A stretch of DNA of 64,000 nucleotides from Candidatus Tectimicrobiota bacterium (GCA_026005175.1 BPKO01000001.1:434001-498000); one strand, 5' to 3'; numbered from the stretch's first letter, positions 57,237 through 63,712 are shown. The notes: generated from the sequence alone by a model not told the origin. Translations and numbers: made by a program.

Positions 57237-58568
57237 ATGCCGACCTCAGCATACCGCGACCAGGTGCGTCGCCTCTATGGTTTGCTCAGCGAGCAGCTGT
57301 ATCTTGGCCGCCCCGACTTCCACCTCGAGGGCGAAGCGGCCAACTCTACGCTGTTGTTTGCCCTGCTCACGGCACTGGTAGGCGGCAAGGCGCTGATTAT
57401 CGGCGAGCCGGGGTTGGGCAAAACCACCGCCGCCGAATACGTGGGCGCCCTGGTGTACGGCTTGCCCTTAGGGGTGATTTGGAGCGGCGAAGTGGCAGGC
57501 CATCCCGAGCAAACCGAGGAAAAAATCGTTGGCCGGCCGCACCTGGGCAAGCTCAACCAGGGCGAAGAAGCGGTGGTGTGGAGCTGTTTTGCCCGCCTGC
57601 CGGTGAAAATCGTCGACGAGATCAACCGCCTGCCCGAAACCAAGCAGAGCCTCGTGCTCGACGGGCTGGATCGCGGCAAGTGGGAGTACCTAAACCAGAC
57701 GCTGGTCAACGACGAGTACTGCCTCTTTGCCACCGCAAACTACCAGGACCAGGGGACCAACACGCTCATTCCCCCCTTGCTGGATCGCTTCGACGTGCTC
57801 GTTGAAGCGAAGCATCCGGGAGCCAACCTGGCGTTTGTCATCGGGCAGTGGGGCTCGCGGGCCGAGCTGCTGCGTCACGCCGCCAGCGAGGCGGCCTTCA
57901 TGGCGGCCCTGCACCGCTCTGCCGACGGCCTTGAAACGGTGCTGGAGCAAACCCGGCGCCGCTTTGCCGCAGTCCTGAGGCAGCGCTGCGGCCTGAGTCC
58001 CCTCAGCCGGCGGCAGCGTCAGGCCATCCGCGCCGAAATCCAGAGCCTGCCACTTGACTTGGAGGCTAACGCCTTTGTGCGCGCCGTGCTGGCGGAGCTC
58101 TCCTTTTGCTGCAAGTACGGCCAGAAGCGCTCCATCGACGTGTGTGAGGAAGGCTGCCACTACACTGGCTATCTCTGCTACGAAGTGCGCAACTGCGCCT
58201 CCAATCGCCTGCCGAGTTCGATTTACCGCTACGCGCAGGCTCTGGCCTGGTGGCTGGGCCGCTCCCAGGTGGCGGTCGAGCACGTGCGGGCCGTGTTGCC
58301 CTATACCCTGGCGCACCGCCTGCAGTGGCGCGAGGCGTACCTGGCGGCGCGCGAGCGCGAGCGGCGCCAGGAGCCTCTGCTCCTGCATGCCGCCCGGCAG
58401 GCCACGGCCGCCGTGTTCCGGCGCTTTTACGAGCAGCGCCACGCCCTGTTGCAGGCCCTAAGTACGGCGGCCCGCATTTACGACGGCGAGGACCTGCCGC
58501 TACCGCAGGGAGACCATCCGCTGTACGCCGAGATCCGGCGTGACCTGGGACAGGACGAGCCATGGTGA
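57237..58568 (+). CDS. MoxR-like AAA+ ATPase with cysteine-rich C-terminal region
   Basis: A 443-residue ATPase. Walker A is GEPGLGKTTAAEYVG (about 58-72), Walker B is KIVDEINRLPETKQSL, and the sensor region is LFATANYQDQGTNTLIPPLLDRFDV. This is the MoxR/RavA class, which acts as a remodelling chaperone with a vWA protein. After residue 285 comes FCCKYGQKRSIDVCEEGC and then CYEVRNC: seven cysteines in about 40 residues, unusual for MoxR and suggesting a zinc or Fe-S site. It overlaps the next gene by 7 bases. Confidence 0.87.
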   Translation: MPTSAYRDQVRRLYGLLSEQLYLGRPDFHLEGEAANSTLLFALLTALVGGKALIIGEPGLGKTTAAEYVGALVYGLPLGVIWSGEVAGHPEQTEEKIVGRPHLGKLNQGEEAVVWSCFARLPVKIVDEINRLPETKQSLVLDGLDRGKWEYLNQTLVNDEYCLFATANYQDQGTNTLIPPLLDRFDVLVEAKHPGANLAFVIGQWGSRAELLRHAASEAAFMAALHRSADGLETVLEQTRRRFAAVLRQRCGLSPLSRRQRQAIRAEIQSLPLDLEANAFVRAVLAELSFCCKYGQKRSIDVCEEGCHYTGYLCYEVRNCASNRLPSSIYRYAQALAWWLGRSQVAVEHVRAVLPYTLAHRLQWREAYLAARERERRQEPLLLHAARQATAAVFRRFYEQRHALLQALSTAARIYDGEDLPLPQGDHPLYAEIRRDLGQDEPW

Positions 58569-59245
58569 ACCCCTTCCGCGAGTTCCGCGCCTATACGCCG
58601 CCGCGCCCCCTCCCCCTTGATACGATCCTCGCGCAGCGCAACGCCGCCTTGCAGCGGCTGCGGCAGAGCTACGAAGCGCTCATTGCCGAAGAAAGCAAGC
58701 AGCTCGTCTGGGTTATCGAACAAGGCGCGCTGTCGCGGGCCTACACGGTGGCTGTCGAGGCCCTACGCGGTGTCGACTTTACGGTGGAAGACCTGGAGGA
58801 CATGTGCCTCGAGCTCGACACCGCCGACGGCGCGGCTGCTTCCCTGGGCGTCCCTTCAGGGCTCTTCATTGCGGCGATGTGCAACCAGGTGCAGGCGACA
58901 GACATCGTGCTCGACCTGCGTGCGTTTAAGCGGCGTTGGCCGTTTCTGGGATTTCGCTTGCCCCGCGGGCGGCGCCTTCGCCTGGAAGGCGACGCCGGCG
59001 ATTTCGTAGGGGCGCTGCTGGCCGGCGGCGAGGTGGTGGTCAACGGCAATGTCGGCAGTTATGCCGGCCTGGGCATGCGCGCCGGCTTGCTGCACATCGC
59101 TTACAGCAGCGGCAAGTACACGGGGGAAGGCATGCGCGGCGGCACCATCCGCGTACAGGGGCGCATCGGTAGCCTGGGTAAGGCCAAGCAGGGCTTCATT
59201 TACGAAGGCGGCCAGCAGGTTTTCCCTGCGCGGAGCGAGGAATGA
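58562..59245 (+). CDS. GXGXG beta-helix protein (glutamate synthase C-terminal / FwdC-like domain)
   Basis: A 227-residue protein. The first 120 residues are helical and unrecognised. The rest is a Gly-rich right-handed beta-helix: EVVVNGNVGSYAGLGMRAGLL, KYTGEGMRGGTIRVQGRIGSLG, the repeat found at the C terminus of GltB and in formylmethanofuran dehydrogenase subunit C. It has no catalytic residues of those enzymes. Its start overlaps the ATPase stop and its stop overlaps the vWA start (ATGA), so the three are tightly coupled. It is probably a scaffold or substrate. Function unknown. Confidence 0.72.
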   Translation: MVNPFREFRAYTPPRPLPLDTILAQRNAALQRLRQSYEALIAEESKQLVWVIEQGALSRAYTVAVEALRGVDFTVEDLEDMCLELDTADGAAASLGVPSGLFIAAMCNQVQATDIVLDLRAFKRRWPFLGFRLPRGRRLRLEGDAGDFVGALLAGGEVVVNGNVGSYAGLGMRAGLLHIAYSSGKYTGEGMRGGTIRVQGRIGSLGKAKQGFIYEGGQQVFPARSEE

Positions 59246-60813
59246 ACTGGCAGCGGCTGGTGGGAGAGCTCTGGCCCCAGGTGCGCCAGAAGCACCTGTG
59301 GCCAGAGCTGCCCATGCCCCGCGTGGCAGCGCTTTCCCGGCCGGTGGCCTTGGAGATGCGCGACAAGCGGCTGACGCTCAACCTGAGCACTTGCGAGGCA
59401 CTGGCTCGCTGGCTGCCGCCCCGCACCGTGGTTGAGGCGCTGCTGGACCACGGCATCAGCCACTACACGCGCTGCCCCTGGGATTTGGCCACCCACTTGC
59501 ACCTTTACGCCGTGGCGAAAGCCGAGCTCGGGTGTCCTTCCCTGGCCAGGGCGGCAACCGATGCCTTTATCGATGTGGTGGCCAACACTTACTGCGTCAA
59601 GGACTACCAGACACCGCTGCCGCAAGTATGCCGCTACTTTCAGGACGACCCCTTACAGCGTACCCTAGTGGCCCTTTACGGCCGCATCTGGGGCGTTGAC
59701 ATGCAGGCCGAAGCGGACGAGGCGCTGGTGCGCCGCCTGGCGCGCCTTCCCTACCTCGACCGCCGGCAGTGGCCGCAGAGCTTGCGCCGCTTCGCCCAGC
59801 TCCTGCGTCCCCTGCTGGAGGCCAGTGGCCGCCTCGCACCCCCGCCGCTGGGACAGCACGGCTTGGGGAACTACTCACGCGAGGAAGTCGAGAAGGCCCT
59901 AGCCACCTTCGCCCAGCAAGCCCCGGACATCGAGGCCTTTCGCAACACCGTCGCGGATTTTGCCGACGAGCTGCTGGCCCTTGGCTACGGCGGAGGGGAA
60001 GGAGAAGGGCGGCGGGTGGACGCCGATGCCCTCTACTACATGGCGCTCGCCCAAAACTATCGCCTCCCGGTGTGTAGCCTCCCCGCCACCGGCAGCGGCA
60101 CGCTCGATCCATACAGCCACGCGCCCTGGGAAGCCAGCAAGCCAGTGCAGGATCTCGACGTATGGACCAGCTTTGGCAAGCTGCTGCCCGGCTTGTCCCA
60201 GCTCTGGGTGCGCCGCCAGGGGACGGTGTTTGGGCAACGCCAGCGGACGCCGGACTGCCTCATCGTCCTCGACTCCTCTGGCAGCATGCCCAACCCGCGC
60301 CAGCAGCTTTCTTACGCCGTGTTGGGGGCTGCCTGCGCTGCTGACGCCTATCTGCGTCGAGGGGCCCGCGTGGCCGTTTACAACTTCAGCGATGCACGGC
60401 TGGCCGGCAAGACGGTGCTCGCCTTCACCGCCGATCGCACGGCCATTTTTCGCTGCCTTTGCGTCTACCACGGCGGCGGCACCGCGTTGGCTCTGCGCGA
60501 TCTGGAAGCCCTGCGGCGCACGGCACCTCAGGGGACGCCCGACCTGGTGCTGATTACCGATATGCAGATTACCAACCTGGAAGAGGTGCTTGCCTATCTG
60601 GCGGGTGTCGAGGGCCGCATTACCGTGGTGCACCTAGGAGACAACGCGGCCACCGAGCGCCTGCGCCACGCCACCGCCACGCACCCCCGGCTGCGCCTTT
60701 TTGCTGTTACTGCCGGCGCCGATATCCCGGCGATTATTCTGGGGCAGGTGCGACACGACTTTGCCCTGGCCCTGGGCCGGCGTGCCTCTGCCGCGGCGGG
60801 CCTTGGACTCTGA
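59242..60813 (+). CDS. von Willebrand factor A (vWA) domain protein
   Basis: A 523-residue protein. The C-terminal vWA domain (about 335-510) has the MIDAS motif IVLDSSGSMPNP (DxSxS), a Thr in HGGGTALALRD and the Asp in LVLITDMQITN, so metal binding is complete. The N-terminal 330 residues are helical and resemble the ViaA/CoxE-type partner of MoxR ATPases. There is no signal peptide, so it works in the cytoplasm. It is translationally coupled to the beta-helix gene. The target of this trio is unknown. Confidence 0.87.
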   Translation: MNWQRLVGELWPQVRQKHLWPELPMPRVAALSRPVALEMRDKRLTLNLSTCEALARWLPPRTVVEALLDHGISHYTRCPWDLATHLHLYAVAKAELGCPSLARAATDAFIDVVANTYCVKDYQTPLPQVCRYFQDDPLQRTLVALYGRIWGVDMQAEADEALVRRLARLPYLDRRQWPQSLRRFAQLLRPLLEASGRLAPPPLGQHGLGNYSREEVEKALATFAQQAPDIEAFRNTVADFADELLALGYGGGEGEGRRVDADALYYMALAQNYRLPVCSLPATGSGTLDPYSHAPWEASKPVQDLDVWTSFGKLLPGLSQLWVRRQGTVFGQRQRTPDCLIVLDSSGSMPNPRQQLSYAVLGAACAADAYLRRGARVAVYNFSDARLAGKTVLAFTADRTAIFRCLCVYHGGGTALALRDLEALRRTAPQGTPDLVLITDMQITNLEEVLAYLAGVEGRITVVHLGDNAATERLRHATATHPRLRLFAVTAGADIPAIILGQVRHDFALALGRRASAAAGLGL

Positions 60814-60820
60814 GGCCTGC

Positions 60821-61444
60821 TTACAGCTCCTTGCCCAACTGCGCACACACCTCTTCGTAGACCCGATAGAGGCGGGCCTGTGCCGCCAGCGCCTGCCGCA
60901 ACACCGGCAGCGCAGAGGCCAGCTCGGCGCTGTTGAGGCTCAGCTCCACCCCGTGCTCGTAAGCGCGCAAGGCATCGGCGGTGGTGACCTCAGGGGCGCA
61001 CAAGACGGCGAACAGGTGGCGGCGGCGCTCCATGGGCAGCTTGCCCAGCCATGCCGCCACCGGGTTGTCTGGCGCCGTGCCGTCAAACACCACCAGCGCG
61101 TAAGGGCGGCGCTCGAGCTCGGCCACGGCCTGGGTGGCGTCGGCGACCAGCTGGGGCACGTAGCCAAGCGCCGTCAGCAGCCGGCTACAGGCCTCGCGCG
61201 CCGCGGCCTCGGCCAGGCAGACGAGGGCCGGCTTGCCCCTGGGCGGGGCAGCCACCGCCGTGCCTGCCTCCAGGGCTTCCGCCACGGGTGGTTCGGGGGG
61301 AGAGGAAGCAGGAGGTTCTGGCGGGAGTTCTACGGTGAAGCGCTCCTGGCACGCCGGGCAGCGCACCCGCATGGGGCGGTGTGGCGGCAGGGCATGCTCG
61401 GCAAGCTGCAAGCGCTTGCCGCAGGCAGGACAGGTAAGATACAT
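60821..61444 (-). CDS. MJ0042-type zinc ribbon plus receiver-like domain protein
   Basis: A 207-residue protein. The N terminus YLTCPACGKRLQLAE, then VRCPACQERFTVEL, is the MJ0042 zinc ribbon. After a Pro-rich linker (about 43-68), KPALVCLAEAAAREACSRLL and ALVVFDGTAPDNPV resemble a CheY-like receiver, with the Asp in VVFD a possible phosphoacceptor. The acidic pocket at its start is not clear, so it may be a pseudo-receiver. It lies 16 bases after the second pilT-like gene and may influence twitching. Confidence 0.65.
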   Translation of the reverse strand: MYLTCPACGKRLQLAEHALPPHRPMRVRCPACQERFTVELPPEPPASSPPEPPVAEALEAGTAVAAPPRGKPALVCLAEAAAREACSRLLTALGYVPQLVADATQAVAELERRPYALVVFDGTAPDNPVAAWLGKLPMERRRHLFAVLCAPEVTTADALRAYEHGVELSLNSAELASALPVLRQALAAQARLYRVYEEVCAQLGKEL

Positions 61445-61460: not shown

Positions 61461-62636
61461 CTACGGGCGGCCCAGGATGCGCCGCTCGTACTCGGTGTCC
61501 AAGGTAAGGCCTTCCAAGTCGGTGGTGCGCTCGCCGCGCGCGCTCTTGCGCTGGTCGATGCCGCGGCGCACCACAGCCCGCTGCGAGGCGTACGCCAGCG
61601 CCGTCGTCTCGCTGATCAGCCCCTTTTCGTAAGCGGCCAGCAGCGCCTGGTCAAACGTCTGCATGCCGGCGGCATGGCCGGCGCTGAGGATGTCGTAAAA
61701 CGTGGCACCCTCGCGTTCGCCGTGCAAAATCGCCTCCTGCACCCGCAGCGAGGTGCGCAGAATTTCCACCACCGCCAGGCGTCCCCCGCCCACTTTGGGC
61801 ACCAGCCGCTGGCTGATCACCCAGCGCAGCAGGGCCGCCAGGCGCGTGCGCAAGAGCGTCGCTTCCTCTGCCGACACCATGCCCAGCAGCCGCTGGATGC
61901 TCTGCCCGGCGTCGATGGTGTGCAGGGTGCTCAGCACCAAGTGCCCGGTTTCGGCGGCGTGCAAGGCAATGTCCACCGTCTCGCGGTCGCGCATCTCCCC
62001 TACCAGGATAATTTTGGGCGCCTGGCGCAGGGCGGCGCGCAACCCCTCGGCAAAGCTTGGGAAGTCACGTCCCAGCTCGCGCTGGTTGAAAGTGGCCCGC
62101 TCGTGGGGATGGAGAAACTCGATGGGGTCTTCCAGGGTCACCACGTGCACGGCGCGCGTGCGGTTCACTTCGTGCAGGATGGCGGCCAGGGTCGAAGACT
62201 TGCCGCTGCCCGTGGCGCCAGTCACCAGCACCAGCCCGTTGGGCTCGCGGGCCACTTCGGCCAGCACCGGCGGCAGCCCCAGCTCGGCCAGGGTGGGCAC
62301 GCGCGTGGCCAGCCGGCGCAGCACCAGGGCCAGCGCCCCGCGGCTCCAGAAGACGTTGACGCGCAGCCGGCCGACGCCCGACACGCTATAGGCCACGTCG
62401 GCAGCGCCCGTCTCCAAGAGCTGGCGCCAAGCACGCCGGTCCTGCCCCAGCACCTCCAGCGCCAGCCGCTCGGTGTGCCACGGGGTTAGCACCGGCCCGC
62501 CTACGGGGCGCAGCTCCCCGTCCACCTCGGCCTGCAAGGGGCGGCCCGGGGTGCAGTTGAGGTCCGAAGTGGTGGGGAACTGCGTCAGGGCTTGCTGTAC
62601 CAGCGTTGCCAGCACTCCCATGGCCCGCCCTCCCAT
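61461..62636 (-). CDS. pilU: PilT/PilU-family twitching motility ATPase (second copy)
   Basis: Retraction-type secretion ATPase of 391 residues. Walker A is TGATGSGKSSTLAA, Walker B is IILVGEMRDRETVD, and the His box is HLVLSTLHTIDAG. Compared with the upstream copy it has a longer C terminus and a less PilT-like N terminus, as PilU does. An alternative start (MGVLATL) lies a few codons in. It overlaps the end of pilT by one base (TGATG). Confidence 0.88.
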   Translation of the reverse strand: MGGRAMGVLATLVQQALTQFPTTSDLNCTPGRPLQAEVDGELRPVGGPVLTPWHTERLALEVLGQDRRAWRQLLETGAADVAYSVSGVGRLRVNVFWSRGALALVLRRLATRVPTLAELGLPPVLAEVAREPNGLVLVTGATGSGKSSTLAAILHEVNRTRAVHVVTLEDPIEFLHPHERATFNQRELGRDFPSFAEGLRAALRQAPKIILVGEMRDRETVDIALHAAETGHLVLSTLHTIDAGQSIQRLLGMVSAEEATLLRTRLAALLRWVISQRLVPKVGGGRLAVVEILRTSLRVQEAILHGEREGATFYDILSAGHAAGMQTFDQALLAAYEKGLISETTALAYASQRAVVRRGIDQRKSARGERTTDLEGLTLDTEYERRILGRP

Positions 62637-63712
62637 CAGCTAAAAAGTTCGTCAGCCTGCGCCACCAGCGGCCGGAAGCGCGCTTTGTCCACGCTGTGCA
62701 CGTAGGCCTCCTCGGGCCGCACCCAGCCGCGCTGCACGAGCTCCCACAGGGCGTCGTCAAGGGCCTGCATGCCGTACTTCTTGCCCGTCTGCAGCACGGT
62801 GGCCAGCTGAAACGTCTTGCCATCGCGAATGAGGTTGCGCACTGCCGGGGTGGCCAGCAGCACTTCCACCGCCGCCACCCGCCCGCGCCGGTCACAGCGC
62901 TTAAGCAGCGTCTGGGCCACCACCGCCTGAAGGGTATCGGCCAGGGTGGCCCGCACCTGCTCTTGCTGGTCGGCAGGGAAGACGTCGATGATGCGGTCGA
63001 CCGTTTTCATGGCGTTTTGCGTGTGCAAGGTGGCAAACACCAGGTGTCCCGTGGCTGCCGCCTCCAGCGCCAGGGCCATGGTTTCCAAGTCGCGCATTTC
63101 CCCCACCATGATGATGTCGGGGTCCTCGCGCAGGGCAGCACGCAGCGCCGCGGCAAAGGAGCGTGTGTGGACGCCCACCTCGCGGTGGTTGACCAGGCAA
63201 TTCTTGCTTGCGTGCACGAACTCCACCGGGTCTTCGATGGTCAGGATGTGGTCGCGGCGGTGGGTGTTGGCATAGTCGATGAGTGCCGCCAGGGTCGTCG
63301 ACTTGCCGCTGCCCGTGGGGCCGGTCACCAGCACCAGACCCTTGCGCAGCATCGGCAGCTGCGCCAGCACCGGTGGCAGCCCCAGCTGCTCCAGCGACAG
63401 GATGGTGTCGGGGATCTGGCGAAACACCGCGCCGATGCCGCCGCGGTGGCGGAAGTAGTTGGCGCGGTAGCGCCCCAGGCCGGGCACCTCGTAAGCAAAG
63501 TCGACGTCGCCGGTTTCCTCGAAAAGCTTGAGCTTGTACTCCGGGGCCACCTCGTAGAGCATGGCGGTGAGCTCCTCGTTGCTCAGCACGCCGTAGCGCA
63601 CCCGCTGCAGGTCGCCGTGCACGCGGACGATGGGCTGCGCTCCGGCGACCAGGTGCAAGTCGCTCGCCCCGTGGTCCACCATGAGCTTGAAAAAGGCGTC
63701 TAGCTTTGCCAT
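62636..63712 (-). CDS. pilT: Type IV pilus retraction ATPase PilT
   Basis: Powers pilus retraction in twitching motility and DNA uptake. It has 358 residues. The N terminus DAFFKLMVDHGASDLHLVAGAQ (in parts) is the PilT dimer motif; Walker A is TGPTGSGKSTTLAA, the Asp box EDPVEFVH, Walker B IIMVGEMRDLETM and the His box HLVFATLHTQNA. It is the first gene of pilT-pilU-zinc ribbon. No other pilus genes are in the window. Confidence 0.95.
   Translation of the reverse strand: MAKLDAFFKLMVDHGASDLHLVAGAQPIVRVHGDLQRVRYGVLSNEELTAMLYEVAPEYKLKLFEETGDVDFAYEVPGLGRYRANYFRHRGGIGAVFRQIPDTILSLEQLGLPPVLAQLPMLRKGLVLVTGPTGSGKSTTLAALIDYANTHRRDHILTIEDPVEFVHASKNCLVNHREVGVHTRSFAAALRAALREDPDIIMVGEMRDLETMALALEAAATGHLVFATLHTQNAMKTVDRIIDVFPADQQEQVRATLADTLQAVVAQTLLKRCDRRGRVAAVEVLLATPAVRNLIRDGKTFQLATVLQTGKKYGMQALDDALWELVQRGWVRPEEAYVHSVDKARFRPLVAQADELFS

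Follow-up and report, generated by a model that had tools for sequence, protein, structure and literature searches.

A conserved unit of MoxR ATPase, GXGXG beta-helix and vWA genes, a putative MoxR–vWA remodelling machine of a kind not yet described

The three-gene unit and its distribution

In a 64,000-nucleotide stretch of DNA from Candidatus Tectimicrobiota bacterium (GCA_026005175.1, BPKO01000001.1:434001-498000; hereafter the window), three consecutive genes encode a MoxR-clade AAA+ ATPase, a beta-helix protein with GXGXG repeats and a protein with a von Willebrand factor A (vWA) domain. An earlier note, made from the sequence alone, had described this composition with both junctions overlapping. 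The open reading frames and family matches bear out both statements, with overlaps of 7 bases between the ATPase and beta-helix genes and of 4 bases (ATGA) between the beta-helix and vWA genes. The features discussed below are the following:

57237-58568, plus strand: MoxR-clade AAA+ ATPase, 443 residues
58107-58196, plus strand: Cys cluster of the ATPase, residues 291-320, from the alignment of members
58562-59245, plus strand: beta-helix protein, 227 residues
59242-60813, plus strand: vWA protein, 523 residues, C-terminal vWA domain
59449-59586, plus strand: candidate degenerate zincin-like site in the N-terminus of the vWA protein, H70-G71-x-x-H74, C78-PWD81 and D111-x-x-x-N115

The sister genome G001 has the same gene order, and its proteins are 72% (ATPase), 66% (beta-helix protein) and 64% (vWA protein) identical to those of the window. 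Differences at codon positions 1/2/3 amount to 0.22/0.15/0.56 in the ATPase gene, 0.23/0.20/0.61 in the beta-helix gene and 0.27/0.20/0.55 in the vWA gene. This pattern of purifying selection in all three indicates that the genes are real.

Scanning GTDB genome contigs with the ATPases of the window and G001 yielded 12 loci: the contig of G001, ten labelled Latescibacteria or Gemmatimonadetes/Gemmatimonadota and one labelled only 'bacterium'. All but that of G001 (11 of 12) belong to one phylum, Latescibacterota. The beta-helix gene is present in 12 of the 12 genomes found via the ATPase, in one copy each, and the vWA gene in 11, the exception being a contig that stops within the beta-helix gene. 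On every contig of sufficient length the genes follow the order ATPase–beta-helix–vWA, except in the split genome G388 discussed below. Together with the window and members found by profile search (G400, G402, G416 and G423-G425), the order is intact in 16 loci. The concern, raised in the earlier note, that the beta-helix gene might be adjacent to the other two only here thus falls away, since the composition holds far beyond the window genome.

Among 64 Latescibacterota genomes, 17 carry the ATPase and the beta-helix gene together, one the ATPase alone, one the beta-helix gene alone and 45 neither (Fisher p 2e-13, not corrected for kinship). The ATPase-alone genome (G401) is cut by a contig end. 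In the beta-helix-alone genome (G422), the contig begins within a short tandem repeat, 157 bases ahead of the beta-helix gene; the 27-base unit of this repeat reads LDVKNTVPA in one frame (L062 1-110). Among 386 genomes sampled broadly around the window, relatives of the ATPase or the vWA protein were few; close ATPase relatives were found only in the window genome and G001, and a remote one in G226. In G002 and G003, the two other genomes of the window's family, the module was not found. The unit is so far found in Latescibacterota and in the window's own small phylum.

G388, a complete Latescibacteria chromosome, provides a natural test of linkage. Here the operon is split and no part is lost: the ATPase gene lies at 3.785 Mb and the beta-helix–vWA pair at 0.785 Mb (L020 9971-13900 and L057 8687-11269). 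Right after the ATPase gene of G388 stand repeated small gene pairs that, as read from the sequence, resemble toxin-antitoxin modules of the HigB/HigA type; several of them end with a similar short sequence, GCCCCGCTTACTGGGG-ATTGA.

Domain content of the three proteins

The ATPase has the Walker motifs, the Arg-finger region and the AAA_lid_2 lid of the MoxR clade. Pfam matches are to AAA_lid_2 (1.6e-8, 34.6 bits, cut-off 22.7) and AAA_5 (2.6e-6, 27.9 bits, cut-off 22). The motifs comprise Walker A GEPGLGKTT (56-64), Walker B KIVDEINR (124-131), the sensor-1 region ATANYQD, LLDRFD and lid 2 at 328-373; in the aligned ATPases both Walker motifs are invariant and the LLDRFD region is conserved. 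The earlier note had pointed to an unusual Cys-rich stretch in the ATPase and proposed metal prediction for its C terminus. Such a stretch exists and is conserved (FCCKYGQKRxxxxCxEGCHYxGYLCYExxxCxSNR); its place is after the AAA core and before the lid-2 match rather than at the very C-terminus. C291, C303, C307, H308 and C320 are kept in 13 aligned ATPases as well as in G400, G402 and G416. C292 and C314 are kept in most members, the exceptions being G400 and G402, where Tyr stands in place of C292, and L021 and L029, which lack C314. The remote L036 ATPase retains C291, C303, C307 and C314, and the ATPases of L017 and L035 have none of the cluster. In the simplest reading the cluster is probably a structural zinc site, although it may alternatively hold an Fe–S (iron–sulphur) cluster.

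The beta-helix protein consists of a helical N-terminal domain (residues about 1-110) and a right-handed beta-helix of the GXGXG/FwdC type (about 114-222). Its assignment to the glutamate synthase C-terminal/FwdC-like fold, proposed in the earlier note, is upheld by both profile search and structure model. PF01493 is matched by 11 of 11 members at up to 0.01; for the window protein the Pfam GXGXG match (4.1e-6, 26.9 bits) is under the curated cut-off of 32.5. The beta-helix part also matches the NCBIfam model of formylmethanofuran dehydrogenase subunit C (1.2e-13, 50.9 bits). An identity as equivalog of that subunit was rejected, as the score is under the equivalog cut-off of 130.65 and FwdA/B/D neighbours are missing. 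Against solved chains, the family profile finds FwdC/FmdC (9sw6_K 1.6e-21, 5t5i_C 5.6e-18) and glutamate synthase (1.8e-5), and these matches cover only the C-terminal half of the protein. Modelled alone, the 227-residue protein (mean predicted local distance difference test score, pLDDT, 84; predicted template modelling score, pTM, 0.79) shows four helices at 18-109 followed by beta strands with pLDDT mostly >92. In Foldseek the top-ranking chains are those of FhcC and FwdC (probability 1.00, E about 0.1); such an E is to be expected of a short helix. The repeats of this fold type are present, and its right-handed fold is shown at the level of a model. Invariant in the members are an NPFxxF motif at residues 3-8 and C107-N108. 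The NPFxxF motif looks like a docking motif; several Latescibacterota members have a second copy some 30 residues upstream.

The vWA protein has a complete metal-ion-dependent adhesion site (MIDAS; DSSGS 344-348, T414 and D440), invariant in 10 aligned members. The C-terminal fold of its model matches vWA domains in Foldseek, and the Pfam VWA_2 match (5.4e-5, 24.2 bits) is under the cut-off of 27. With its DxSxS...T...D site and its place beside the ATPase gene, it makes the two a MoxR–vWA couple. The protein ends soon after the vWA domain, with no beta-propeller following.

A feature absent from the earlier note is the N-terminal domain of the vWA protein (residues 1-195, pLDDT mostly 74-96). 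The N-terminus has no match in Pfam or NCBIfam, where one member reached CoxE-like VWA only at 0.028; the whole protein found nothing convincing among solved sequences, and the Foldseek rows shown for its model concern the vWA part, with no row bearing on the fold of residues 1-195. The domain aligns with that of remote relatives from G032, G263 and G122, in which HEIGHH is followed by an (E/D)xxxN-like motif. HEIGHH is confined to these three distant relatives (L035, L036 and L092). The beta-helix-type members read have HGxxH (HAxxH in L021) followed by CPWD, with the downstream Asp kept and the catalytic Glu replaced by Gly or Ala, so that the HExxH-plus-acidic-ligand signature of M48-like zincin metallopeptidases is not found in them. 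Since the catalytic Glu is lost throughout and the probable metal ligands are kept, we consider the N-terminus, with moderate confidence, to be probably a metal-binding pseudopeptidase (pseudo-zincin).

Proposed mechanism and alternatives

We lean, by a narrow balance, towards the three genes encoding a single ATP-driven remodelling machine of the MoxR–vWA type with a dedicated beta-helix third subunit, either adaptor or scaffold. In NorQ/NorD, a hexameric ring is plugged by the vWA domain and carboxylates on the surface of the client are needed (PMC9976466); this precedent suggests that the ATPase–vWA pair remodels a client. By analogy, the ATPase would form a hexameric ring in which the Cys-rich zinc site might hold the lid region. 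The vWA protein would dock on this ring, and the metal of its MIDAS would grip an acidic side chain or a peptide of the client. The pseudo-zincin domain might aid this grip and, as it keeps metal ligands and not the catalytic Glu, would bind without cutting. The beta-helix protein would be a constitutive adaptor or scaffold that docks to the ATPase–vWA pair by its helical N-terminus, NPFxxF leading; its beta-helix would display or hold the client, or make the complex multimeric. Finally, ATP hydrolysis would pull the vWA-bound client, whereby assembly is completed or metal inserted.

The genomic context bears on the role of the beta-helix protein. The window has a luciferase-like monooxygenase gene upstream of the unit and genes for a zinc-ribbon protein and PilT-like ATPases downstream. 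The former of these downstream proteins (60821-61444, minus strand; 207 residues) begins with a zinc ribbon and weakly resembles receiver domains at its C-terminus (response regulator match 0.11); the latter are two adjoining PilT/PilU-like T2SSE ATPases (61461-63712, minus strand; 391 and 358 residues). In G001, as read from the sequence, the unit is preceded by hydrolase and MltA-like genes and followed by a cysteine desulfurase-like gene. The main Latescibacterota clade has ABC transporter genes upstream and an FKBP lipoprotein gene downstream (product names read from the sequence), with a pseudouridine synthase and ABC permeases also around the module. The FKBP-type lipoprotein gene is found directly 3' of the vWA gene in 11 loci (L022, L023, L025-L028, L057, L058 and L062-L064) and stays there after the G388 split (L057). 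The flanks of G400 and G402 differ from all of these. The earlier note had suggested looking for a recurrent fourth gene; no flanking gene is common to all the lineages compared (window, G001, main clade, G400 and G402), and the FKBP lipoprotein occurs in a single Latescibacterota clade. This gene, the pseudouridine synthase and the ABC permeases were rejected as fourth gene and are taken as lineage synteny: in the window and G001 the module does not have them as neighbours, and none was seen in the readable part of G400 and G402. As the flanking genes differ between lineages, the unit appears self-contained, and the lack of a common neighbour argues that the beta-helix protein belongs to the machine and is not the end piece of a metabolic operon. 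Furthermore, it is always present, in one copy, never exchanged and not accompanied by a recurring enzyme operon, and hence is best read as a fixed subunit.

The main rival explanation, to which we give a lesser though real chance, takes the beta-helix protein as the client itself, matured or remodelled by the MoxR–vWA pair, as cNOR is by NorQD and Rubisco by CbbQO, and acting elsewhere once assembled. Clients of MoxR–vWA pairs are often encoded beside them. The beta-helices of FwdC and GltB are parts of large enzymes, so that the protein could be an orphan enzyme subunit. The G388 split, moreover, leaves the beta-helix gene with the gene of the presumed client binder, the vWA protein, and not with the ATPase gene. 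However, the conserved positions of the protein are structural glycines, NPFxxF and C107-N108, with no obvious cofactor or catalytic set; no enzyme genes recur beside its gene across lineages, and its N-terminal domain is unmatched in the FwdC and GltB enzymes. Of the roles entertained in the earlier note (client, adaptor or scaffold), conservation and context thus seem to favour a constitutive subunit. Several points nevertheless weigh against a remodelling machine of the proposed build. The unit has no known client, phenotype or physical interaction; a client role of the beta-helix protein would also lead one to expect a conserved operon structure; and a related ATPase–vWA pair without an intervening beta-helix gene exists (G226, L017). 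The model of the vWA protein is only moderate (mean pLDDT 71, pTM 0.53), its zincin assignment is based on alignment with relatives at about 20-24% whole-protein identity, and of the distant relatives L036 alone reaches a Pfam peptidase model (M48, 5.5e-4), at the threshold set for M48 itself.

It is unlikely that the unit is a biological-conflict (immunity-like) MoxR–vWA ternary system of the type described by Kaur et al. (2020), in which the beta-helix protein would be a new third component or effector. The layout of ATPase, third protein and vWA protein is the same, and the distant L035 ATPase, which is fused to an FGE-sulfatase-like domain, weakly matches bpMoxR (23.1 bits, cut-off 27). 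Yet the unit occurs in one copy per genome, these members all retain the same, well conserved third component, and no effector domains were found. The only PADLOC match, IetA at 0.06, was discarded, and no relatives of the ATPase were found on viral contigs or plasmids. The P-loop is canonical instead of the GXXXTAKS variant often met in the beta-propeller class, and none of 13 ATPases matched PF20030 (bpMoxR) at 0.01. Still less probable is an ATP-dependent proteolytic system in which the zincin-like domain cuts substrates brought by the ATPase and a beta-helix adaptor: distant relatives do carry HEIGHH, one of them with the M48 match mentioned above, but the catalytic Glu is Gly or Ala in all beta-helix-type members read. 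We give least credence to neighbourly coincidence or a lineage relic without joint function. Long flanking synteny within one Latescibacterota clade means that adjacency there says little by itself; the order is, however, kept where all flanks differ (window, G001, G400 and G402), all three genes are retained after the G388 split, and all three are under purifying selection.

Comparison with known systems

The unit resembles NorQ/NorD, CbbQ/CbbO, RavA/ViaA and CoxD/CoxE in being built on an ATPase–vWA pair with intact Walker and MIDAS motifs, and by analogy the same ring-and-plug mechanism is probable. To our knowledge, none of these pairs has a beta-helix third gene. Moreover, in those pairs the client gene as a rule lies next door or is known, and this unit has neither. 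With FwdC/FmdC/FhcC and the C-terminal domain of GltB, the beta-helix protein shares alignable repeats (E down to 1.6e-21) and a structural match; unlike in these enzymes, the helix is shorter, the N-terminal helical domain is different, and no formylmethanofuran dehydrogenase or glutamate synthase genes adjoin.

The closest comparison within the family is with L035 and L036, where a zincin–vWA protein, also found in L092, has a MoxR partner. Their vWA proteins are alignable with ours over the N-terminal and vWA domains, and the L036 ATPase has four Cys positions in common with the ATPase of this unit, but HExxH is intact and no beta-helix gene is present. In L035 (4785-9270, G263), which represents a separate variant of this family, the MoxR ATPase carries a fused FGE-sulfatase-like domain and the next gene encodes an HExxH zincin–vWA protein. 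L036 (7449-11466, from the 9 Mb genome G032) encodes a MoxR ATPase, an unrelated middle protein (about 240-275 residues, no Pfam match) and an HExxH zincin–vWA protein. Its middle protein shows no homology to the beta-helix protein (hhalign probability 0.1). L036 is a further variant with three genes, in which the third component is not the same. A MoxR–vWA pair in G178 (L093) lacks the zincin part and was set aside.

MoxR–vWA machines mature respiratory and metal enzymes, and how they choose their clients is poorly understood. A beta-helix subunit and a dead zincin-like domain, set beside the HExxH relatives, offer a clean comparison to ask whether third component and dead protease are client-recognition parts. 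Moreover, the uncultured Latescibacterota gain a testable single-copy machine.

The earlier note knew of no described system with this composition. Likewise, no paper in the searched open library joins MoxR with GXGXG or formylmethanofuran (subscription papers and preprints lay outside the search), and within the literature covered the composition is new. Kaur et al. (2020; PMC7159879) distinguish four MoxR–vWA ternary classes, VMAP, iSTAND, FtsH and beta-propeller, none with a beta-helix; bpX, GXGXG and beta-helix do not occur in their text. Like those systems, the unit combines a MoxR ATPase, a vWA protein and a conserved third protein in one operon. Unlike in them, the third protein is in all members a GXGXG beta-helix with a helical N-terminus, not a VMAP, iSTAND, double FtsH or beta-propeller-TPR component; a degenerate zincin-like N-terminus of the vWA protein appears to replace effector or beta-propeller domains; and the unit is single-copy, has a canonical P-loop and lacks a variable effector. 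Features of the bpMoxR subclass are not found, L035 alone having its sub-threshold match. The unit thus falls under the broad kind of MoxR–vWA couples and fits no named ternary class. It resembles a MoxR–vWA remodelling machine of a kind not yet described, and we tentatively suggest, as a possibility somewhat short of even, that it represents a fifth ternary class in Latescibacterota and the window's phylum, in which an FwdC/GltB-type beta-helix would serve as scaffold, the zincin of the vWA protein would have turned into a metal-holding peptide receptor, and a formerly proteolytic AAA+ system would have become a non-cutting assembly chaperone.

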